Assembly (NCBI GenBank): GCA_018400335.1
Contig: JAGYMT010000019.1
Location: 1 to 12,394 of the forward strand
DNA from: Kiritimatiellia bacterium
GTDB taxonomy: Bacteria > Verrucomicrobiota > Kiritimatiellia > JAAZAB01
DNA: 12,394 bases
Direction: 5' to 3'
In this document: one piece after another, positions 1,983-12,359 of the stretch
How the letters are laid out: every line of letters starts with the position of its first letter
Position numbering within the stretch: position 1 is the stretch's first letter
Notes under the pieces: model-generated
What the model saw: the letters and a program-made list of their open reading frames with translations, nothing else
What the model was told of the DNA's origin: nothing
Database searches by the model: none
Translations under genes and position numbers: made by a program

Positions 1983-3239
1983 ATGAAGATGAAGCTGTTA
2001 TTCACCTTGTTGTTATCGGTGCTGTCGGCGGCGTCCGCCGCGGCGGCGCCCTCCGACTTTTCATGGCGGCAGGAAATCCTTGATCGCCCCGTGTCCGGCA
2101 GGATGGCGCGGGCGCAGGTGACGGCCGAAACGTGGGACGGCTGTGAATGGGCGCCGGAAAGGGACTTGCGCATTTACGACGCGAACGGCACGGAGTGGCC
2201 CTTCTTCATGTGGATCGAGCCGGGCGATGCGAAAGAAGTCGCCATTCCGGCGACGCGGATCAACGAGGTGGAGGTGCAGGGCATGCGTCAGTTCGAGCTG
2301 GAGCTGGGCGACGCGGCGGCGAAGGGGCACGACAAGATTCGCGTGGTCTTTGACGGCAAGGACTACATGAGGAGGACTGAGATATTCGGACGCGAAAGCG
2401 AGGCCGACGCCTGGGGCCTGCTCGGCGCCGGCTTTCTGGTCAGAATTCCGAAGGCGCCGCCGGTGAAGGAGGATATCGTCGCTTATTCGCGATCCACCTT
2501 CAAACACCTGATGGTGCGCGTCCACCCGGACCCGCGCAGGCCGGAAGAAATCGTGCCTTCGCCCGCCTCGGAAACCATGCCGGTCCGGTCTGAGGGCAGG
2601 CCGGAGCCGCGCGACGAGATAGCGCTGTCACCCTGCGACGGAAGCGGCGGGAAGGAAAAGCAGAAGGGCATTCAGTTGCTGGAATTCGATTCCGGCTTGG
2701 CCGTGCCGCTTCGCGAAATCGAGATCAGGGCGGACGGCGAGTATTCGAGGGACGTCCGGATCTACTGCAAGAGACATCAGACTAATGGCTGGCAATGGGC
2801 GGGCTCCGGCAGGATAAGCAGGATCGGGGATGCCGAGTTCGCGCGGATACCCGTTGACAGCGCACCGGCTGTCCGCTGGCGGGTTGACGTGGAGCAGCTC
2901 GACGACGCGCCGCTCGAAAACGTACGGGCGACAGGGCGCGCGGCGAGAACATGGCTCGTGTTCGAGGCGAAGTCGGCCGCCCCCGCGCACGTTTATTTCG
3001 GCGATAGCGAAGCGACAAGGCCAAGGTATGACATTTCGAGGCGCGTGAAGGATGCCGGAGCGGTCGGGGCCGTCAAGCTCGGTCCGCGCGAGCCGAACCC
3101 GGAGCAGCGGACAAGGCGGTCCGCACCGAAATGGCTCATTCCGGCGGGGATCGGCCTGGCCGCCGTGATAATGCTCCTCGTTATCGTGAACATGCTGCGT
3201 GACATGTCGGGAAAGAAAGCGGCGGCAAAGCCGACTTGA
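1983..3239 (+). CDS. DUF3999 family exported, C-terminally anchored protein
   Basis: The 418-residue product begins with a signal peptide (MKMK, a leucine-rich core, then ASAAAA to about residue 22). The mature N-terminus, DFSWRQEILDRPVSG, followed by LRIYDANGTEWPFFMW, matches the start of DUF3999 proteins. The middle is a polar, probably beta-rich region (roughly residues 25-360) with sandwich-like strands and conserved-looking DVRIYCKR and WRVDVEQLDDAPL. A single transmembrane helix follows at about 385-407, with a short basic tail (SGKKAAAKPT). The predicted topology is therefore a periplasmic domain tethered to the inner membrane. The start at 1983 has GGAAG seven bases upstream. Position behind a DUF2339 gene supports the call, since the two families commonly pair and may form one envelope complex (inference). 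No enzymatic motif was seen and the function is unknown. Confidence 0.85.
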   Translation: MKMKLLFTLLLSVLSAASAAAAPSDFSWRQEILDRPVSGRMARAQVTAETWDGCEWAPERDLRIYDANGTEWPFFMWIEPGDAKEVAIPATRINEVEVQGMRQFELELGDAAAKGHDKIRVVFDGKDYMRRTEIFGRESEADAWGLLGAGFLVRIPKAPPVKEDIVAYSRSTFKHLMVRVHPDPRRPEEIVPSPASETMPVRSEGRPEPRDEIALSPCDGSGGKEKQKGIQLLEFDSGLAVPLREIEIRADGEYSRDVRIYCKRHQTNGWQWAGSGRISRIGDAEFARIPVDSAPAVRWRVDVEQLDDAPLENVRATGRAARTWLVFEAKSAAPAHVYFGDSEATRPRYDISRRVKDAGAVGAVKLGPREPNPEQRTRRSAPKWLIPAGIGLAAVIMLLVIVNMLRDMSGKKAAAKPT

Positions 3240-3281: not shown

Positions 3282-5597
3282 ATGGTCAGGGACTGGATAT
3301 TTGAAAACGAAGATGCGGTTGCGGCCCGATTTCTGGCGGCCGGGCTGCCGGCAAAGGTGTTTGACATCCATGCGCATCTCTACCGCAAAGACACATTGTC
3401 CGTTGCGCGCGATAATCTGTTTGCGACTGGACCGGACGAGGTGACACCGGAGATATGGCGGGAACATATCGGACGCCAGATAGGGAGCGACCGGCCGGCG
3501 GGCGCGCTTTTCATACCCGTCCCGTTTGCGGCGCGGGAACAGATTCCAGCCATCAATGCCTGGATGATGAAGGCGACCGGCGGACTTGCCGAGGCCAAGG
3601 CCCTCGCGCTTGTGGCGCCGGACATGACGACCGCGGACGTGGCGCCCCTGCTCAAGCACGGGTGCTTCGCCGGGTTCAAGCCCTATCACACCTACAGCCT
3701 CACGCATCCGACTTTCGAGGCGCTCCCGAGCGACTACATTCCGGAGTGGATGTGGCCCCTTGCGCACGAACATGGACTGGTCATCACTTTGCACCTGGTG
3801 CGGGGCGGTGCGATGGCCGATCCCGGCAACCTGCGCTACCTGCGGGAGCGTTGCGAACGGTTTCCCGGCGCGCGCCTGATCCTGGCGCACTGCGGACGGT
3901 CGTTCCATGCGCCCAACGCGACGGCCGGTATCGCCAGCCTGAGCTATCTGCCAAATGTTTGGTTCGATACCGCCGCGATCTGCGAGGCTGAGCCGATCCG
4001 TGTTCTATTGGAGGCCTGCGGTCCGCGCCGCCTGTTGTGGGGCAGCGATTTCCCCGTATCCGAACAACGAGGGCGGTGCGTGACTGCCGGCGACGGCTTC
4101 TTCTGGCTGACCCCCGCTCATCTTAACGCGGCTCAACCGGAATGCCGACTGCTGCCAGTCGGCCTGGAGAGCCTGCGGGCGCTCCGGGAAGCCGCAAGGG
4201 AGTTCGGCCTCAACGCGGATGATCTCCAGGACGTGTTCGCCGAAAATGCCCGGCGCCTGCTGGGGTTGGCGCCCGAAACCCTTACTTGCACCCAGGCCCT
4301 TTATGGCCATGCCAGACAGCGCATGCCCGGCGGCACCCAGTTGCTGAGCAAGCGCCCGGAAATGCTGGCTCCGGATCAATGGCCGGCCTATTTCCGCGAA
4401 GCACGCGGGTGTGAGACCTGGGATCTCGACGGGCGGCGCTATTTTGATTTATCCACCAACGGCATCGGTTCCTGCCTGCTCGGTTTCCGCGATCCCGACG
4501 TGACCCGCGCTGTGAAAAGGCGAATCAGTCTCGGCAGCATGTGCACGCTGAACCCGCCGGAGGAGGTGGAATTGGCTGATCTGCTGTGCGAGATTCATCC
4601 ATGGGCTGAACAGGTGCGCTTCGCCCGCTGCGGCGGGGAAGCCTGCGCCGTGGCGGTGCGCATTGCCCGCGCCACGACCGACCGTTCTCTCGTTGCAATA
4701 TGCGGCTACAACGGCTGGCAGGATTGGTATCTGGCGGCAAACCTTGGCGAAAGCGACTCGCTGCGCGGCCACCTGTTGCCCGGCTTGAGCCCCTTGGGTG
4801 TGCCCAGCGAGCTGCGCGGCACGGCCGCCACCTTCGCGTTCAATGACCGCGCCGCGTTCCAGGAACTGCTCGACAAACACGGCAGCAGGCTCGCCGCGGT
4901 AATTATGGAGCCGTGCCGATCGCAGGATCCGGCTCCCGGTTTTCTCGAGTTCGTCCGTGACGGCGCCCACCGGGTCGGCGCGTTGCTGATTATTGACGAA
5001 ATCACCATTGGCTGGCGCCTGCATTTTGGTGGCGCGCATCTCAAGTTCGGAGTTTTTCCTGATCTGGCGGTCTTCGCGAAAGCCATTGGCAACGGCCATC
5101 CCATGGCCGCCATAATCGGAACCCGCGCCGCCATGGCCGGCGCCCACGGGTCTTTTATCAGCAGCACCTACTGGACGGAGAGCATCGGCCCGGTCGCGGC
5201 CCTGGCGACTATACGGAAGATGCAGGCCGTAAATGTGCCGGCCCACATTACCCGTGTCGGCGCCCGCGTGCAGAGGCAATGGGCGGAGAGCGGTCGCCGC
5301 CTTGGCTTACCCATACACGTCGGCGGTTATCCCTGCCTGGCTCACTTCCGATTCGACCACGAGAAGGCGGATATATTGCGCACTCTCTATACCCAGTATA
5401 TGCTTGCTCGCGGGTTCCTGGCCGGAACCGGGCTCTACCCAACTCTGGCCCATACCGATGCCATCGCGGAGCGATATTGCGAAGCCATTGACATGGTGTT
5501 CAAAGACATTGCCGATATCCTGGCAGATGGAGGCGATATCTCCAAAAACCTCCGCGGCCCCGTCGCGCACAGCGGTTTCCGGCGGTTGGCGGATTGA
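3282..5597 (+). CDS. Fusion protein: amidohydrolase (Amidohydrolase_2 type) plus class III PLP-dependent aminotransferase
   Basis: A 771-residue single reading frame joins two full enzymes. Residues about 1-330 are a TIM-barrel metal-dependent hydrolase of the Amidohydrolase_2 family: FDIHAH supplies H30 and H32, TLHL supplies H171, LAHCGR supplies H203 and GSDFP supplies D256. The domain ends with the usual ENARRLLGL helix (321-329). After a linker of about ten residues, residues 341-771 form a complete class III aminotransferase most like glutamate-1-semialdehyde aminomutase: YGHARQRMPGG, DLDGRRYFDL, the phosphate-loop segment RCGGEA (449-454), YNGWQDWYL, IIDE with D572, and FAKAIGNGHP with the PLP lysine K600. 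The usual SGTEA loop reads CGGEA. The start at 3282 has GGAG nine bases upstream. Substrates are unknown; hydrolysis, lactone opening or decarboxylation coupled to amino transfer is inferred. The adjacent YhcH gene hints at a sugar acid or amino sugar. It is not a haem-pathway hemL by architecture. Confidence 0.88.
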   Translation: MVRDWIFENEDAVAARFLAAGLPAKVFDIHAHLYRKDTLSVARDNLFATGPDEVTPEIWREHIGRQIGSDRPAGALFIPVPFAAREQIPAINAWMMKATGGLAEAKALALVAPDMTTADVAPLLKHGCFAGFKPYHTYSLTHPTFEALPSDYIPEWMWPLAHEHGLVITLHLVRGGAMADPGNLRYLRERCERFPGARLILAHCGRSFHAPNATAGIASLSYLPNVWFDTAAICEAEPIRVLLEACGPRRLLWGSDFPVSEQRGRCVTAGDGFFWLTPAHLNAAQPECRLLPVGLESLRALREAAREFGLNADDLQDVFAENARRLLGLAPETLTCTQALYGHARQRMPGGTQLLSKRPEMLAPDQWPAYFREARGCETWDLDGRRYFDLSTNGIGSCLLGFRDPDVTRAVKRRISLGSMCTLNPPEEVELADLLCEIHPWAEQVRFARCGGEACAVAVRIARATTDRSLVAICGYNGWQDWYLAANLGESDSLRGHLLPGLSPLGVPSELRGTAATFAFNDRAAFQELLDKHGSRLAAVIMEPCRSQDPAPGFLEFVRDGAHRVGALLIIDEITIGWRLHFGGAHLKFGVFPDLAVFAKAIGNGHPMAAIIGTRAAMAGAHGSFISSTYWTESIGPVAALATIRKMQAVNVPAHITRVGARVQRQWAESGRRLGLPIHVGGYPCLAHFRFDHEKADILRTLYTQYMLARGFLAGTGLYPTLAHTDAIAERYCEAIDMVFKDIADILADGGDISKNLRGPVAHSGFRRLAD

Positions 5598-5642: not shown

Positions 5643-6095
5643 ATGATCATTGACAACATCAAAAACGCCTCAAGCTATCACGGGATCGGCACGGGGATTC
5701 AGACGGCCCTTGAGTACCTGGCGAAGACGGACTTTGCGGAGACGGCGCCGGGTCGTTACGATATTAGTGGCGACAAAGTATATGTGTTGGTACAGCAGTA
5801 TGAGACCAAGCCCCGGGAAAAAGGCGTGTGGGAAGCGCATCGGCGCTATATTGACGTCCAATACGTGGCGAAGGGTATGGAGAACATGGGGTATGCTCCC
5901 GTAGACAACCTGACGGTGACCCAGACGTATTCAGCGGAGAATGATTGCGCGCTGTTTACCGGAAAAGGGGACTTCTTGACGGCGCGCGCCGGAATGTTTA
6001 TCGTTTTCTTCCCTACAGACGCCCACATGCCCTGCCTGGCAAGCGAAGCGCCCATGCCAGTGCGCAAGGTCGTGGTCAAGGTGGCGGTGGCATAG
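5643..6095 (+). CDS. YhcH/YjgK/YiaL family protein (DUF386), probable sugar anomerase-like
   Basis: The 150-residue product matches the full usual length of this cupin-like metalloprotein family. The signature residues are visible: WEAHRRYIDVQYVAKGMENMGYAPV in the centre (metal-ligand E and H, then Y, D and Q) and FFPTDAHMPC near the C-terminus (second histidine). E. coli YhcH (NanQ) has been described as a metalloprotein that speeds opening and anomerisation of N-acetylneuraminate, and EbgC is the small subunit of a beta-galactosidase; other members are uncharacterised. The start at 5643 is well supported by AAGGAGA at 5628-5634, eight bases upstream. It follows the fusion gene after 45 bases with no obvious promoter or terminator between, so co-transcription is likely. 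A role in processing a sugar or sugar acid used by the fusion enzyme is inferred. There is no signal peptide, so it is cytoplasmic. Confidence 0.9.
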   Translation: MIIDNIKNASSYHGIGTGIQTALEYLAKTDFAETAPGRYDISGDKVYVLVQQYETKPREKGVWEAHRRYIDVQYVAKGMENMGYAPVDNLTVTQTYSAENDCALFTGKGDFLTARAGMFIVFFPTDAHMPCLASEAPMPVRKVVVKVAVA

Positions 6096-6210: not shown

Positions 6211-7215
6211 ATGATGACCGGGACAAGGGATTTCGATTTCGCGTTCAACCACGACGGGTTCGGAATGCTGGCCGAACTGGCCGGAACCGAAATGACGGAA
6301 GATGACGCTTCGCGCGTGCTGGTTGACCCGCTCCGCGATTCCTGCGTCACCGTTATTGACTGGAGCATCCTCACTACCGGCCAGCATAATTGCCGGACGA
6401 GGCATGGCAGGGGATTTGTCGGCGACGGGCAGGGCCGGGAGATAGACGAACTTGTCGGCAGGGTGGTCTCTCACTACAACGCGCAGCCGCGCGATCTCCT
6501 GGATGTCGTGCTGAGACGCGGGCACGCGGCGGGACTCCGCGTTTTCGGCAACATCAGACTCAACCACGGCGCTCTCAATACGGACAGGCTTCTCTCTTGC
6601 CCTGGACGGAACGCAGGCGGAAAAAAAGATTTTAGGGATCCTGCATTCCACGCTTACCTCTGCGAGCTGGTCGAAGATCTGCTGGCAAAGGGTGTTGACG
6701 GCATCAGCCTGGATTTCGAGCGCAAGGCTCCGTTCTTTCCCGACGGGACAGCGCTTAATGAACGCATGGCGGCATGCTCCGCTTTCCTCAGGCGCGTACG
6801 AGCCATGACGGCTAAGCCGGTTATCGCGCGTGTTTGCCACGATGCGGGCAAGGGTATCGTCCAGGGTCAGGATCCCGAGCGGTGGATGGCCGAGGGGCTG
6901 GTCGACGTGGTCGTGCCGGCAACGCATAACCATGAGCCGGATTCGCTGGACTGGTCCTTCGACCGCTTTCTTGAGGCGGCGCGCGGGTCGCCGCGGCCGT
7001 GCAGGGTGTGGCCGCAGATCTGGCCTACGCCCGTCGCGTGGAAGGAGAGGGATACACTCCTGCACAGCGATGATGCGATATTGAAGAGGATAGAAGAGAT
7101 TAAGAGACGCGGTGCGCACGGCGTGTACTTCTTCAACTTCTGCTGCTTCGGCAGCCGTTCGCCGTTCTTCAGCCTGTTCAGGACCTTGCCGGCCCGTAAG
7201 AGCTCATGTGCATAG
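6211..7215 (+). CDS. TIM-barrel glycoside-hydrolase-like protein (family uncertain)
   Basis: The 334-residue product has the order of elements seen in GH10-like (GHL) and related TIM-barrel glycosidase-like proteins. VLRRGHAAGLRVFGNIRLNH (about 100-119) resembles the helix-strand where an aromatic or polar residue lines the substrate cleft. AKGVDGISLDFERKAPFF (about 160-178) gives a strand-end acidic pair, D168 and E170, that would be the candidate active site. ERWMAEGLVDVVVPATHNHE (about 226-245) is the phrase, rotated by one barrel repeat, that in this group precedes the last strands. There is no signal peptide, so an intracellular role or a missed export route is implied. ATG codons at 6211 and 6214 are both possible; GGAAGGTGAAGGGG immediately upstream supports translation here. 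It has its own promoter candidate and converges on the URO-D-like gene. Glycosidase activity is inferred from fold resemblance, not demonstrated. The last 15 or so residues are serine- and arginine-rich and unlike the family core. Confidence 0.6.
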   Translation: MMTGTRDFDFAFNHDGFGMLAELAGTEMTEDDASRVLVDPLRDSCVTVIDWSILTTGQHNCRTRHGRGFVGDGQGREIDELVGRVVSHYNAQPRDLLDVVLRRGHAAGLRVFGNIRLNHGALNTDRLLSCPGRNAGGKKDFRDPAFHAYLCELVEDLLAKGVDGISLDFERKAPFFPDGTALNERMAACSAFLRRVRAMTAKPVIARVCHDAGKGIVQGQDPERWMAEGLVDVVVPATHNHEPDSLDWSFDRFLEAARGSPRPCRVWPQIWPTPVAWKERDTLLHSDDAILKRIEEIKRRGAHGVYFFNFCCFGSRSPFFSLFRTLPARKSSCA

Positions 7216-7217
7216 GA

Positions 7218-7234
7218 GCTGATGAGAAATCAGC
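7218..7234. terminator. Possible small hairpin between convergent genes
   Basis: GCTGAT (7218-7223) and ATCAGC (7229-7234) form a perfect six-pair stem with a GAGAA loop, starting two bases after the stop codon of the TIM-barrel gene. Convergent genes need termination here, but no T-run follows on either strand, so a Rho-independent terminator is not established. The remaining bases to 7282 contain GATGAACAGGATG (7252-7264) and nothing else I can name. Confidence 0.3.
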
Positions 7235-7282
7235 CCGGAAAGAGCAGGTCGATGAACAGGATGAATATCTTCCCGGAACACT

Positions 7283-8350
7283 CTACCCGCGAAGCTCACG
7301 CAGGCGCTCGGCTATTGCCGCCGCGCTCGATGCGTCCTTCGCCTGCACTTCGAACACCACGCGCGCCTCTTCCGGAAACTGCGAGGGCCAGGTTTCCGGT
7401 TCGCCTTGGGGTTGCCAACCGATGGGCATTTGGGCGAGCGATTGCGCGGCATAGAAACTCAGTGAGTCAAACACGTACTCGCGCGGATCGCTAGTGGGCG
7501 GCACGTTGTGGTTGATGACCTTCAGGCCGGGCAGCGCCCTGAAATTACCCCACTGGTGCCGCGCGTCGGCGCAGCAGTGTACGCCGAGTCCGCCGAAATG
7601 CCTGGAAATTGCGACCAGCTCGTCGGTGAAGAACTCGCGGAACATATCCTCGCTGACCGCTCCCACCTCGTCCACCGACATCGTGATCCCGCCGTGCATG
7701 ACGTAGTCCGGATAGTGCGCCACGAAAGTGGTGCCGTAGCGGCGGAACCACTCATCGAGAAACGCGGTGAGCAGGTTCCGGACCTTTTTCGCCAGCGCCT
7801 TGACGGAATCGGGGCTCTCGACCATGGCGCAGAAGAGATCGGACTTATCCCAGATCAGAGCCACTATGTCCATCGGGCTCTGGATATCCACCGGCTTCAT
7901 GATCGCCGAGGGCCCCCCGCGCCGGCGCAGTTCGTCGGCTATATCGAAAAGAGGCGCCAGAGAGGACACGCTGATCTCCGGTATCTCCAGAGCATCCGCC
8001 TCCGCCGCGCCGTTAACGAATGGTATTGCAAAGGGAAGGTTGTCGGCGGGGCGATGCACCTCGCATCCGAATGCCTCGGCGAATATCTCGGTTCCTGTTA
8101 TGTTGCTGATGAAGGGAATCCTGTCGTCGTCCACCAGCGCCGCCTTCTTGAGCATCAACTGATATTCAGCCCAGCGTCTTGCGATGCGCTCCTTCTCCAG
8201 CCCGGGCCAGAGCGGGGGCATCGGCGGAAGGCGCTTTTCGTCGTCGGGCAATGGGAAGTTGACGTGGAACATGAACTTGCCGGAACGCTTCTCAACGAAC
8301 GAATGCCAGTCGGCAAGCCTTGCTTCAATGGAACGAATATTGTCTTTCAT
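7283..8350 (-). CDS. Uroporphyrinogen decarboxylase-like (URO-D/MtaA superfamily) protein
   Basis: The 355-residue product has the superfamily's C-terminal half. MSVDEVGAVSEDMFREFFTDEL is the helix leading to the active-site face, and GGLGVHCCADARHQWGNFRALPGLKVINHN is the diverged form of the segment that in MtaA-type methyltransferases contains the His-x-Cys zinc ligands (here H258 and C260). The usual arginine-rich N-terminal motif of true haem-pathway HemE is absent, so this is not a HemE. No C-terminal cysteine is present, so the third zinc ligand of MtaA-type enzymes is not recognisable. Relatives are abundant in PVC bacteria and archaea, and include corrinoid methyltransferases; many have unknown substrates. 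The start at 8350 is supported only by a weak GAAAGAG about nine bases upstream. A small gene lies 56 bases upstream on the same strand. Methyl transfer is inferred; decarboxylation is an alternative. Confidence 0.82.
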   Translation of the reverse strand: MKDNIRSIEARLADWHSFVEKRSGKFMFHVNFPLPDDEKRLPPMPPLWPGLEKERIARRWAEYQLMLKKAALVDDDRIPFISNITGTEIFAEAFGCEVHRPADNLPFAIPFVNGAAEADALEIPEISVSSLAPLFDIADELRRRGGPSAIMKPVDIQSPMDIVALIWDKSDLFCAMVESPDSVKALAKKVRNLLTAFLDEWFRRYGTTFVAHYPDYVMHGGITMSVDEVGAVSEDMFREFFTDELVAISRHFGGLGVHCCADARHQWGNFRALPGLKVINHNVPPTSDPREYVFDSLSFYAAQSLAQMPIGWQPQGEPETWPSQFPEEARVVFEVQAKDASSAAAIAERLRELRG

Positions 8351-8574: not shown

Positions 8575-8727
8575 CTGATCAACTCTCTTTCCGTTTCTTC
8601 AGTCAGTCGTGCATGTTATCCGGTGATCTCATCCACGAAAAGCCTTTTTTCTTGAAATGTTATTCAGTAGTTTCGAATTGCCATGCGAATAGCAACTGCT
8701 AAACTGCATCCGACCATTGGAGATGTA
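8575..8727. promoter_or_regulatory. Divergent intergenic region between the URO-D-like and sulfatase transcripts
   Basis: The genes on either side point away from each other, so promoters for both should be here. The stretch 8640-8680 is clearly richer in A and T than its surroundings and contains TTGAAA (8652-8657), a possible -35 element for the sulfatase, but I cannot place a convincing -10 at 16-18 bases. No clear operator palindrome was found. The ATG at 8683 within this stretch is in frame with the sulfatase but is not preferred as its start. Confidence 0.35.
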
Positions 8728-10206
8728 ATGAAAAGAAAACCGAACTTGGTAATATTCGTGCCCGACTCCTACAGGGGCGACGTGCTTAGCCACCAGGGCA
8801 ACGCGGGCGCGCTCACGCCCGCGCTCGACAGTCTGGTCTCGCGCGGGGGCGTGTCGTATTCAAATGCGTTTGCCCAGAATCCCGTATGCACGCCGAGCCG
8901 ATGTTCGTTCATGACCGGCTGGTATCCGCATGTGCACGGGCACCGCTCGATGAGAAACCTGCTGAAGCCGTGGGAGCCGAACCTCATGGGCGTGCTGCGC
9001 GAGAACGGCTACCACGCCTGGTGGGGCGGAAAAAACGATCTCCTGAAGGTAGACGGACCGCAAGGTTATCTCAGCTATTGTGACGAGAAATTCACCGGCG
9101 CCGGACAATACGACGAGTTCATGACCCACTTCCTCCCCGCAGCGCTTGCGTCCGACGACCCGCGCAGGGGCGCTTACTATGGCGGGGTGTTGACCAAGGA
9201 CGGGCAGGGCAAGCCGGTCAGGGATCAGGATGAAGTATGGGTCCGTGGCGCCGTTGATTTCTTCGGCAATAGGCCGGAAAACCAGCCCTTTTTCTGTTAC
9301 TTGCCGCTGGGCAAGCCGCATCCCGCGTACTTTGCTGAAGAGGGCTATTACAACGCAATTGACCCGGCCAAGCTTCCGCCGCGGATTCCGACACCGCCCG
9401 CGGAGGCAAACCTGCCGCCGGTCCTTGACGCGCTGAGAAAGGAATACCGTGCATCGGGGATCAGCGAGGAAACCTGGCGCGACGTAAAGAGGATCTACTA
9501 TGCCATGTGCGCCAAGGTGGACGCCCTTTTCGGAATGGTGGTCGAGGGGCTGATCGAGCAGGGCATTTACGACGACACGCTGATCGTGTTCATGTCGGAC
9601 CACGGCGACTTTACGGGCGACTATTCGCTGCCGGAGAAGACGCACAGCACTCTCCAGGATTGCCTGTTGCGCGTTCCCCTAATCATCAAGCCGCCGGCGG
9701 GAACGCCGGTTCAGGCCGGCAACCGTTCGCACCTCACCGAGCTTGTTGACGTGCCCGCCACGATCTACGATCTTCTTGATATCAACCCCGGCTACGACTG
9801 CCAGGGCATTTCGTTGAGATCATCCATCGCGGGGGACGAGACCGCCATCCACGATGCGGTTTTCGCCGAGGTCGGATCGAGGAAAGGCGAGACGGCCTTC
9901 TTCAATACGGAAGTCAACAAGATGCCCGCGGAGAGCTTCTACGGCATGCAGTCGCGCGCGGCGCGTCCTTTCGCGGCTGCCGGCACGCACGCCGTGACCT
10001 GCCGGACCCTGCGCCACAAGTACGTCCGCCGGCATTACACGAAACATCACGAGCTGTTCGATCTTGAAAAGGATCCTGGTGAAACGCTCAATCTCAGCGG
10101 GGACCCGCGTTACGCCGATGTCGAAAGGGCGATGGAAACGCGTCTGCTCGATTTCTTTATGGACACGGGCGATGTCCTGCCTTTCACGCAGGACAACAGG
10201 CAGTAA
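8728..10206 (+). CDS. Type I sulfatase (alkaline-phosphatase superfamily), formylglycine-dependent
   Basis: The 492-residue product contains the sulfatase signature C54-T-P-S-R58, whose cysteine is converted to formylglycine, followed by TGWYPHVHGHR. Further active-site elements are PD13 in the first strand (metal ligand), GGKNDL, D291-H292 in MSDHGD (metal ligands) and K304 in PEKTHS, then RVPLIIKPP. The C-terminal part has LFDLEKDPGETLNLSGDP, typical of the family. Where many sulfatases have two adjacent acidic residues in the first strand, this one has Asp-Ser. I chose the ATG at 8728 over 8683 because GGAG lies five bases upstream and the protein then begins MKRKPNLVIFVPD like its relatives; the earlier ATG would add 15 poorly conserved residues. 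No signal peptide is visible from either start, so it is probably cytoplasmic. Its stop codon overlaps the next gene by one base. Substrate unknown; some relatives act on other esters. Confidence 0.9.
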   Translation: MKRKPNLVIFVPDSYRGDVLSHQGNAGALTPALDSLVSRGGVSYSNAFAQNPVCTPSRCSFMTGWYPHVHGHRSMRNLLKPWEPNLMGVLRENGYHAWWGGKNDLLKVDGPQGYLSYCDEKFTGAGQYDEFMTHFLPAALASDDPRRGAYYGGVLTKDGQGKPVRDQDEVWVRGAVDFFGNRPENQPFFCYLPLGKPHPAYFAEEGYYNAIDPAKLPPRIPTPPAEANLPPVLDALRKEYRASGISEETWRDVKRIYYAMCAKVDALFGMVVEGLIEQGIYDDTLIVFMSDHGDFTGDYSLPEKTHSTLQDCLLRVPLIIKPPAGTPVQAGNRSHLTELVDVPATIYDLLDINPGYDCQGISLRSSIAGDETAIHDAVFAEVGSRKGETAFFNTEVNKMPAESFYGMQSRAARPFAAAGTHAVTCRTLRHKYVRRHYTKHHELFDLEKDPGETLNLSGDPRYADVERAMETRLLDFFMDTGDVLPFTQDNRQ

Positions 10207-12359
10207 TGATTCACGACAGCACATTCTACGAGATAGCGGCCATCCTGCTGCTGGCGACCGTGTGCGGGATGCTGGGCCAGAAACTGCGCCAGCCGCTGCT
10301 CATCATGTTCCTGGTGGCGGGTGTGGTGGCGGGGCCCGCGGGGCTCGGGATCATAGGGAGCTATGAACAGATAGAGCTGCTTGCCCACATGGGGATAGCG
10401 CTGCTGCTGTTCATCGTGGGGCTGAAGCTCGACCTGAATCTCATCCGCGCCACGGGCCCGGTTGCGCTCGCGACCGGGCTGGGCCAGATCATCTTCACGT
10501 CCGCATTCGGTCTGCTCATAGCCCTCGCGCTCGGCATGAGTTTCGTCCACGCGGTCTACGTGGCGGTGGCGCTCACTTTCTCCAGCACCATCATCATCGT
10601 GAAACTGCTCTCAGACAAGAAGGAGATAGACTCGCTGCACGGGCAGATTGCCGTCGGTTTTTTGATCGTCCAGGATATAGCCGCGATCCTGGCGCTCGTC
10701 GCGCTGACCACGCTCGGCGACGCGAAGGCCGGGGACCATCCGCTTCTTTTGTCGCTGGTGATAGCCGCCAAGGGGCTCGGCCTGCTCGGCGCCGTCGCGC
10801 TGCTGATGAAGTATGTCCTGCCGCTCCTCACGCGGTTGCTCGCTCATTCGATTGAGCTGCTTATCATCTTCGCCATTGCGTGGGCCGTATCGCTTGGCGC
10901 GGTCAGCGAGATGCTGGGGTTCAGCAAGGAAGTCGGCGCGTTCCTTGCCGGGGTATCTCTCGCCTCAACTGACTACCGCGACGCGATAGGCGCGCGGCTC
11001 ACAACCCTGCGCGATTTCCTGCTGCTTTTCTTCTTCATTGATCTCGGCGCCCGCCTGCAATGGACATCCGTGGCGCCGCAGTTCGGGTCGGCCATGCTGC
11101 TTTCCCTCTTCGTTCTCATAGGCAATCCCCTCATCGTGCTGGCGATAATGGGGTTCATGGGCTACAGGCGCCGCACGGGGTTCCTCGCGGGCCTGACCGT
11201 GGCGCAGATAAGCGAGTTCTCGCTCATCCTGGCCGCGCTCGGTCTGGGCCTCGGCCACATAACGGACGAGATAATGGGGCTGATCACCCTTGTCGGGGTG
11301 GTTACCATTCTGGCCTCAACTTACATGATCCTTTATTCGGAACAGTTGTACAAATTTCTGTCGCGTCCGCTGAAGGTATTCGAGCGCCGCAACCCGTATC
11401 GCGAAGCGGCAAGCGACGCGATCAGGGAATCCCCGTTCGTGGACGTGATCCTCCTCGGGCTCGGAAACTACGGGGGCGGACTGGCGGAATATCTCCTGCG
11501 CCGGAACAAGACGATCATAGGCGTGGATTTTGATCCGGGCATCCTGGAGCGCTGGCGCGCTCGGGGCGTCTACGTGCTGTACGGCGACATGGCCGACCCG
11601 GAGATACACAAGCAGTTGCCGCTTGCCAAGGCTCGCTGGGTGGTGAGCTCCATCCGTTCCGAGAAGCTGAATCTCGCGCTCGTGCGCCGCCTCAGGCACC
11701 TGGGCTACAAGGGTAAGGTGGCGCTCACCGCCGTGCGACAGAGGGAGGCCGAAAAATTCGAGAAGGCGGGCGCCCAACTAGTGTTCAGGCCGTTCACCGA
11801 CGCGGCCGAACAGGCGACCGACGCTCTCGCATACGCCATGGATTTCATGCCGGAGGATGTGAACTGGCCCATTGCCTTTCGCGAGGTGAGGGTGCGGTCC
11901 GACGCCGCCGTTGCCGGTCTGAACATCAGGGATATCCCGCTGAGGGCGGCAACGGGCGCCTCGATACTCGCTGTCAGCCGCGCGGGACACGTTCATTACG
12001 AACCGGGCCCCGATTTCCGAATCTATCCGGAGGATCGGCTGATAATCATGGGCGCGCCCGAGGAGCTGCACGACGCCGAAGAGGCGCTGAACCAGATTGC
12101 CGCCAGGGATGGCGTGGAATCGGGCGACAGGTTTGAACTTGCCGAAATCCGGCTGGCGGAGGATTCAAAGCTTGCCGGAAGCAACCTCGCAGATACAGGC
12201 TTCCGTCAGGCTCATAGGGTGACGGTGGTCGGGATACGCAGGGGCGATGAACAGATAACCAAGGTTCGTCCCGCCGAGCCGCTGCTGGCCGGGGATGCGC
12301 TGATAGTCGTTGGAACAGTCAATGCCGTGGAGGAGTTGAAAGGAAGGGAGCCGCTTTGA
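10206..12359 (+). CDS. Kef-type CPA2 cation:proton antiporter with RCK_N and two RCK_C domains
   Basis: The 717-residue product starts with about 12-13 membrane helices (residues 5-385) of the Na+/H+ exchanger fold. Q156-D157 in IVQDIAAI is the Gln-Asp pair typical of Kef-like members, and FSKEVGAFLAGVSLAS and ISEFSLILAALGLGLG match conserved helices. A cytoplasmic RCK_N (TrkA_N) domain follows from about 412 to 530, with the nucleotide-binding G418-x-G420-x-x-G423 and acidic D441 in IIGVDFDP. Two RCK_C-like ligand-sensing domains follow, at about 554-632 and 643-716. It should exchange K+ or Na+ for protons under control of nucleotide or another ligand. E. coli KefB and KefC lack the tandem RCK_C part. 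The ATG overlaps the sulfatase stop (TAATG), and ACAGG lies five bases upstream, so translational coupling is likely. No KefF/KefG-like partner is in the window. Confidence 0.92.
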   Translation: MIHDSTFYEIAAILLLATVCGMLGQKLRQPLLIMFLVAGVVAGPAGLGIIGSYEQIELLAHMGIALLLFIVGLKLDLNLIRATGPVALATGLGQIIFTSAFGLLIALALGMSFVHAVYVAVALTFSSTIIIVKLLSDKKEIDSLHGQIAVGFLIVQDIAAILALVALTTLGDAKAGDHPLLLSLVIAAKGLGLLGAVALLMKYVLPLLTRLLAHSIELLIIFAIAWAVSLGAVSEMLGFSKEVGAFLAGVSLASTDYRDAIGARLTTLRDFLLLFFFIDLGARLQWTSVAPQFGSAMLLSLFVLIGNPLIVLAIMGFMGYRRRTGFLAGLTVAQISEFSLILAALGLGLGHITDEIMGLITLVGVVTILASTYMILYSEQLYKFLSRPLKVFERRNPYREAASDAIRESPFVDVILLGLGNYGGGLAEYLLRRNKTIIGVDFDPGILERWRARGVYVLYGDMADPEIHKQLPLAKARWVVSSIRSEKLNLALVRRLRHLGYKGKVALTAVRQREAEKFEKAGAQLVFRPFTDAAEQATDALAYAMDFMPEDVNWPIAFREVRVRSDAAVAGLNIRDIPLRAATGASILAVSRAGHVHYEPGPDFRIYPEDRLIIMGAPEELHDAEEALNQIAARDGVESGDRFELAEIRLAEDSKLAGSNLADTGFRQAHRVTVVGIRRGDEQITKVRPAEPLLAGDALIVVGTVNAVEELKGREPL

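Follow-up and report, generated by a model that had tools for sequence, protein, structure and literature searches.

A widespread fusion of an amidohydrolase with a class III aminotransferase, with a possible role in the breakdown of amino-sugar-derived compounds

Positions 1 to 12,394 of contig JAGYMT010000019.1 from a Kiritimatiellia bacterium (assembly GCA_018400335.1, forward strand; hereafter the window) include a gene in which an amidohydrolase and a class III aminotransferase share one reading frame. Is this pairing a genuine protein, and what might two such active sites do together? An earlier note on this DNA, made from the sequence alone, had proposed two full-length enzymes in a single frame, and this is borne out: the 771-residue open reading frame carries PF04909 (Amidohydro_2) over residues 91-329 at 73.1 bits, against a Pfam gathering cut-off of 26.4, and PF00202 (Aminotran_3) over residues 368-666 at 118.2 bits, against 30.5, with the lysine and aspartate of the pyridoxal phosphate (PLP) site present. 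A codon-usage model trained on the fusion gene recovered the window genes as coding. The gene and its parts are as follows, with the border between the domains placed by us.

3282..5597, plus strand: fusion gene, 771 aa, ATG start, uninterrupted frame.
3345..4268, plus strand: amidohydrolase half, residues about 22-329, (beta/alpha)8 metal-dependent hydrolase fold (PF04909; predicted structure, predicted local distance difference test score, pLDDT, 96.7).
4269..4283, plus strand: short linker, residues 330-334.
4284..5594, plus strand: class III (fold type I) PLP aminotransferase half, residues 335-771, glutamate-semialdehyde-aminomutase-like (PF00202).

The pairing recurs far beyond this contig. 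A protein homologue search gave 5781 matches among 8000 candidates scored, and the domain-architecture check that the earlier note had suggested found both domains in 120/120 homologues among the matches listed (120, down to 59% identity), far beyond chance. A scan of species genomes found at least 542 stretches encoding a relative, from which 80 loci were kept. Both halves lie within one gene in 74 of these (72 assigned by script, and L024 and L048 by hand, each having parts of both halves with the frame broken once); in four others (L046, L067, L069, and L071) the aminotransferase stands alone behind an in-frame stop, and a contig end truncates the remaining two (L036 and L077). A phylum is named for 69 of the 74 fused loci, eleven phyla in all: Planctomycetota (23), Verrucomicrobiota (13), Bacteroidota (8), Bacillota (6), Spirochaetota (5), Armatimonadota (4), Lentisphaerota (4), Hydrogenedentota (3), and Kiritimatiellota, Chloroflexota, and Omnitrophota (1 each), the single-locus phyla being less firm because many loci come from metagenome-assembled genomes (MAGs). 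Carriers include named isolates of Paenibacillus, Cyclobacterium, Lunatimonas, and Mariniphaga. The window itself may be a metagenome record, but because the same join recurs across homologues and in 74/80 loci from independent assemblies, named isolates among them, we reject an assembly or read error that joined two genes as having a negligible chance of being correct; homologues confined to separate genes, which the earlier note had named as fatal to its reading, are not what we find.

We next ask whether both active sites are intact. An AlphaFold2 model of the fusion is confident across most of both halves (mean pLDDT 92.6; predicted template modelling score 0.89), with lower ten-residue blocks of 56-70 around residues 481-510 and of 46-68 at the C-terminal tail. 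Hits to the whole model were filled by the aminotransferase half, and the hydrolase half was predicted and structure-searched alone, giving an eight-stranded barrel at the pLDDT listed above. Conservation was read from an alignment of 105 fused rows (A2), including rows at 45-50% identity, and from a 76-row hydrolase alignment (A4), including stand-alone hydrolases down to 26% identity; rows with a stop or N within the aligned stretch and matches covering <250 query residues were excluded.

3369..3377, plus strand: H30-A-H32, HxH metal motif on strand beta-1; both histidines in 105/105 and 76/76 rows.
3678..3680, plus strand: K133 on strand beta-4; 105/105 and 76/76 rows.
3792..3794, plus strand: H171, just after beta-5, predicted metal ligand (model and alignments, 105/105 and 76/76).
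3888..3890, plus strand: H203, just after beta-6, predicted metal ligand (model and alignments, 105/105 and 76/76).
4047..4049, plus strand: D256, after the short beta-8, predicted metal ligand or general base (model and alignments, 105/105 and 76/76).
4632..4640, plus strand: G451-G452-E453, PLP phosphate loop signature of the fusion family; 105, 105, and 104 of 105 rows.
4995..4997, plus strand: D572; 105/105 rows.
5079..5081, plus strand: K600; 105/105 rows.

Binuclear amidohydrolases have an HxH motif on beta-1, a lysine on beta-4, histidines on beta-5 and beta-6, and an aspartate on beta-8. H30, H32, K133, H171, H203, and D256 reproduce this pattern, in or just after the expected strands, with K133 at the position that we take to be that of the carboxylated bridging lysine; D28, R206, N225, and D229 are likewise unchanged in 105/105 (A2) and 76/76 (A4) rows. 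From these sequence features we infer that the hydrolase half would bind divalent metal and act as a hydrolase. In the aminotransferase half, D572 presumably binds the pyridine nitrogen of PLP and K600 is presumably the Schiff-base lysine. All seven residues singled out in the earlier note (H30, H32, H171, H203, D256, D572, and K600) are kept in every row of A2, although that list overlooked K133, which is also invariant. The note's 'CGGEA' phosphate loop holds at its core, with G-G-E conserved in place of G-T-E, but its flanks vary, position 450 being C in 35/105 rows and position 454 A in 55/105.

The history of the pair is told by trees of the quick kind, midpoint-rooted, with long branches and Shimodaira–Hasegawa-like approximate likelihood ratio support only. 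Among the 120 rows of the aminotransferase tree, 79 are fused and require 6 state changes, against a mean of 34.3 when shuffled. Nested among these fused rows are others without the hydrolase, namely a clade of 15 Hydrogenedentota, L046 (Kiritimatiellae), L039 (Paenibacillus contaminans), and L121 (a planctomycete), and earlier-branching stand-alone aminotransferases are also present. The clade of 15 includes L077, labelled stand-alone, yet its contig ends two codons upstream and its fusion state is uncertain; L036 was labelled unknown. Duplicate or cut rows were dropped beforehand, L090, L091, L092, L094, L096, L097, L101, and L115 from the aminotransferase tree, and L091, L092, and L115 from the hydrolase tree. 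In the latter, six stand-alone Hydrogenedentota hydrolases form one clade inside the fused hydrolases, and all six genomes also carry the aminotransferase (hypergeometric p 0.0004). The trees fit an old fusion that was split several times afterwards, and, because the stand-alone hydrolases nest within fused ones and the aminotransferase is co-present, it appears that in Hydrogenedentota a fused gene was cut and both pieces were retained as separate genes.

Other Hydrogenedentota genomes have a stand-alone aminotransferase without a close hydrolase, and several of these have only a distant one (about 28-33%). A distant hydrolase gene directly precedes the aminotransferase gene in G043; in G048 and G047 it adjoins or lies near a gene for a Gfo/Idh-family protein, and in G046 hydrolase, Gfo/Idh, and aminotransferase all lie within 16 kb. 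The functional coupling of the halves that the earlier note had argued from the fusion is thus supported by split versions of the pair that still co-occur or adjoin.

The two halves also differ in their nearest kin. The locus nearest to the window is L003 by hydrolase (71% identity) and L002 by aminotransferase (87%), and among homologues P0019 shares 53% (hydrolase) and 87% (aminotransferase) with the window and P0025 73% and 65%, respectively. Measured against the window, P0008 has 80% identity in its hydrolase and 74% in its aminotransferase; against P0120 the corresponding values are 46% and 90%. The identity profile of P0008 shifts near residues 300-360, the domain border, although this homologue rests on one 3.1-kb metagenome contig and could be an assembly chimera. 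Identity profiles of the mosaic relatives shift near the linker at 330-334. In L078 and L080, from two separate MAGs, the hydrolase half lies outside the main fused group and the aminotransferase inside it, their join with L114 in the hydrolase tree being possibly false (long-branch warning). Part of the identity spread is explained by unequal rates, the hydrolase being mostly the more diverged half. Because their nearest kin differ, the halves seem to be inherited partly independently though fused, and these comparisons suggest that some relatives combine one lineage's hydrolase with another's aminotransferase, by module swapping inside a conserved fusion. The greater variation and apparent swapping of the hydrolase half suggest that it may face the more variable part of the substrate.

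What that substrate might be was approached first through known enzymes. Among structures, the hydrolase half aligns best, as judged by Z, with the COG3618 amidohydrolase of Burkholderia multivorans (4dlf/4do7), which we take to be an L-fucono-1,5-lactonase (Z 23.8, root-mean-square deviation 2.9, 254 aligned, 17% identity); this is a single-domain chain of 284-287 residues, and the predicted likeness to COG3618 lactonases is one of fold only. The best PDB sequence match of the PLP half is PctV, a 3-aminobenzoate synthase (4zm3/4zm4; 145 bits), which is biosynthetic and, unlike the fusion, has a single domain and an ordinary SGTEA loop. The highest curated profile is PRK06209 (NCBIfam class III aminotransferases), at 215.9 bits over residues 335-770, below its equivalog cut-off of 486; its 450 positions do not include a hydrolase domain. 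The aminopentol aminotransferase FumI (6hbs/6hbv) is 24% identical to the PLP half. FumD, its partner, is a carboxylesterase, not an amidohydrolase; the natural genes are separate, and a FumD-FumI fusion is reported to have been made by linking them.

A name that databases often attach to such proteins, where they name them at all, is glutamate-1-semialdehyde aminomutase (GSAM), and it does not fit. The fusion shares the class III fold and the PLP-site aspartate and lysine with HemL/GSAM, but scores 165.7 bits on TIGR00713 against an equivalog cut-off of 527.3. In an alignment with Pseudomonas GSAM, the serine and arginine that we take to bind the substrate carboxylate are replaced by Leu354 and Lys357, each in 105/105 rows. 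A separate gene above the HemL cut-off is present in 8/12 fusion-bearing genomes; the best HemL scores in the remaining four, for which completeness was not given, are 466.8 bits (G012) and 188-249 bits (G001, G004, and G011). On these grounds we reject a haem aminomutase. The non-haem substrate proposed in the earlier note therefore stands, but not the argument from the altered phosphate loop: this segment binds the phosphate of PLP, and PctV with 3-dehydroshikimate (4zm4) keeps SGTEA, leaving the loop unsupported as a pointer to substrate.

The genome context of homologues, whose examination the earlier note had also proposed, provides a second line of evidence, with sugar-type neighbours and co-occurrence with a Gfo/Idh partner in Hydrogenedentota. 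We scanned 100 of 180 co-directional neighbours from 56 of 61 loci, window included; these were hand-chosen, mostly at offsets 1 and 2 and with the longest proteins omitted, and some loci are close kin and not independent. Among them are 16 BNR_2 sialidase-like propellers, 10 Gfo/Idh proteins, 5 xylose-isomerase-like barrels, 3 SSF transporters, and 3 SDR dehydrogenases. Thirteen carrier genomes totalling 72 Mb contain 243 BNR_2 matches, about 0.4% of genes assuming 0.9 genes per kb, and the enrichment near the fusion has a binomial p of 1e-21, shared ancestry ignored. One particular Gfo/Idh protein (L067, 8530-9465) follows or adjoins the fusion or aminotransferase in several phyla, with a match at E <= 1e-20 in 11/13 carrier genomes, a single match in 10, and 30-36% identity in four. 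Among 68 Hydrogenedentota genomes, it occurs (match >=60% identity) in 17/20 with the system and in 4/48 without (Fisher p 1e-9).

Some loci carry fuller sugar-type sets. A fucose-isomerase-like protein, a class II aldolase, and an FGGY kinase lie beside the fusion in L005, and L082 has distant, separate copies of both enzymes with a DeoC aldolase, an arabinose-isomerase-like protein, and an FGGY kinase. The aminotransferases of L082 and L081 are matched best by other profiles of class III, so such hydrolases have been paired with aminotransferases of this class on more than one occasion. In the Cyclobacteriaceae loci (5/5), two 3HCDH genes flank a second GSAM-like aminotransferase, followed by PhyH, SSF, BNR, and the fusion; further on are AKR, Gfo/Idh, and SDR genes in 4/5, an HpcH aldolase and RidA in 3, and an M19 dipeptidase and a ceramidase-like gene in 2. 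The second aminotransferase of these loci (L019, L021, L025, L026, and L027) is stand-alone, 29-32% identical, a few kb upstream, and sits in a conserved cluster with PhyH, SSF, and an AraC regulator.

Because of the sugar-type neighbours, the nearest folds (which include a presumed sugar lactonase type and an amino-polyol aminotransferase), and the persistence of the pair as fused, adjacent, or co-occurring genes, the simplest interpretation is that a sugar derivative containing nitrogen is processed in two consecutive steps. Our preferred reading, which we put forward tentatively, is a bifunctional catabolic enzyme for an amino-sugar- or aminopolyol-derived compound, in which the metal site unmasks the substrate and the PLP site deaminates it. 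The metal site would open a lactone or lactam, or remove an N-acyl group, of an amino-sugar or aminopolyol derivative; the PLP site would then turn the exposed amine into a ketone, passing the amino group to a 2-oxo acid; and Gfo/Idh- and SDR-type dehydrogenases would take the carbon skeleton onward into central metabolism, which a sugar isomerase, FGGY kinase, and aldolase might likewise feed at some loci. Hydrolysis over decarboxylation or hydration, the order of the steps, the direction of transamination, and the class of substrate are all points that we infer. Of the earlier note's coupled reaction, a lactone, amide, or carboxyl group being processed and an amino group then moved, the coupling gains support from the split pairs, and the reaction itself is plausible only.

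Several observations weigh against this catabolic reading. The contexts are varied, with 70 Pfam families among the 100 neighbours; sugar-type genes abound in the carrier genomes; the isomerase, kinase, and aldolase set occurs in L005 and L082 only; and both the co-occurrence and the enrichment tests ignore shared ancestry. Among 199 Planctomycetota genomes, six have the fusion and only G001 has the Gfo/Idh protein at E <= 1e-40, so the partnership is not universal, although these absences are less firm because scoring covered just a portion of the candidates in each genome. G006, G050, and G056 carry the aminotransferase with no hydrolase found at E <= 1e-15, and nine Hydrogenedentota genomes that lack the aminotransferase (G032, G052, G054, G055, G058, G059, G060, G063, and G077) have distant hydrolases (25-32%). 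By Foldseek E-value, the first hits of the hydrolase half are an IDCase decarboxylase and a 2-pyrone-4,6-dicarboxylate hydrolase. The window's own neighbours back a sugar substrate through the YhcH gene alone, and a tblastn search (E <= 1e-4) turned up no YhcH relative around the other 80 loci.

5643..6095, plus strand: YhcH/YjgK/YiaL (DUF386) gene, 45 bases after the fusion (Pfam and NCBIfam profiles).
6211..7215, plus strand: 334-aa protein without a Pfam match, an uncertain partner.

The YhcH protein scores 136.1 bits on TIGR00022 (cut-off 45.5) and 114.9 bits on the N-acetylneuraminate anomerase profile (acetylneur_anom), below its equivalog cut-off of 160; it is a possible, candidate co-transcribed partner of the fusion in this genome. 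The 334-aa protein has weak similarity (26-28%) to stretches in L004, L067, and L012.

The alternative that survives best is a reversed order in which the PLP half first makes a beta-keto or vinylogous acid that an ACMSD-like metal half then decarboxylates or hydrates. We think this unlikely: decarboxylases of that kind are usually mononuclear, the invariant beta-4 lysine K133 fits a binuclear hydrolase better, and the best-aligned chains by Z are COG3618 members. Somewhat less probable still is that the PLP half is an intramolecular aminomutase needing no co-substrate, as are its GSAM relatives, since the fusion falls far below three profile cut-offs (486, 525, and 527.3), the GSAM carboxylate residues have become Leu354 and Lys357, and FumI and PctV are equally near. 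That the system instead builds an aminated surface sugar of the nonulosonate type seems improbable to us. A DegT aminotransferase gene lies upstream of the fusion in L005, and in a Legionella O-antigen cluster a possibly related class III aminotransferase, labelled 'GSAM', adjoins genes for PseG and an acylneuraminate cytidylyltransferase (PMC3694923). Against such biosynthesis, the neighbours met most often encode sialidase-like propellers, dehydrogenases, isomerase-like barrels, and transporters, and the 25 families shown of the 70 include neither a glycosyltransferase nor a CMP-sugar synthase. In several lineages the aminotransferase occurs without a fused hydrolase half, as would be expected if only one half were catalytic in each organism and the other a scaffold or regulator, but the predicted metal and PLP residues are unchanged in all 105 fused rows, even at 45-50% identity, which makes this very improbable.

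Two more specific pathways were considered and not adopted. BNR_2 neighbours, YhcH, and a NanA-like DHDPS protein in L067 prompted a sialic-acid pathway, which we set aside because the anomerase and lyase profiles are below cut-off (the L067 protein at 220.6 bits against 281), DHDPS lies near 5 loci only, and the BNR_2 protein of L007 has no signal peptide visible by eye. A sphingolipid pathway, raised by ceramidase-like neighbours near 9 loci and the FumI-like fold, would concern a minority of loci; the DHDPS and ceramidase-like counts rest on longest-frame gene calls, with shadow frames in GC-rich loci.

Other genes were observed around the fusion and its relatives. In the window, a URO-D family protein (7283-8350, minus strand, opposite to the fusion) scores 27.4 bits against a cut-off of 23.9, and URO-D or MTTB proteins recur near fusion or related loci (L002, L036, L037, L057, L063, L081, L082, L084, and L089), hinting at a candidate methyl-transfer or methylated-amine pathway. 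Directly upstream of the fusion are DUF2339 (86-1690) and DUF3999 (1983-3239) genes, both on the plus strand; tblastn found no relatives of either in the other 80 loci, and they are therefore probably unrelated to the fusion. Further downstream, an arylsulfatase-type sulfatase gene (8683-10206, plus strand) overlaps by one base a gene for a KefC/YbaL-like cation:proton antiporter with TrkA domains (10206-12359, plus strand). L002, whose aminotransferase half is the nearest to the window's, has an alanine racemase gene (309-1412) upstream of the fusion and a second, separate Amidohydro_2 gene (6568-7605) directly downstream. Paralogous protein pairs of 149-178 aa (clusters c26/c27) occur in L069 (6144-7527), L057 (1449-2358), and L005 (14330-15318), with no Pfam match for the three proteins scanned.

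The earlier note knew of no characterised protein with this architecture, and our searches of the open-licence literature likewise turned up no paper describing the fusion. The sole 'aminotransferase-amidohydrolase' string comes from a list of operons in a study of lysine riboswitches (PMC5584792). Sequence databases already contain the architecture, for the most part without a name or labelled 'class III aminotransferase' or 'GSAM', and it is a conserved, uncharacterised pairing of two known folds. Each half is of a familiar kind; the pair is common (at least 542 genome stretches), and where a name is given it is often that of the haem enzyme, to which the curated cut-off gives no support. 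More speculatively, and with considerable doubt, the fusion may mark a hitherto undescribed catabolic pathway for nitrogen-containing sugars or aminopolyols in at least eleven phyla, with a modular key enzyme whose hydrolase halves are joined, swapped, or cut loose on a conserved aminotransferase; the hydrolase would set which conjugate enters (lactone, lactam, or N-acyl), and the aminotransferase would be the common step. The Gfo/Idh partner offers a concrete entry to the pathway, and the natural split, swapped, and fused forms are ready constructs for asking when fusing successive enzymes helps.

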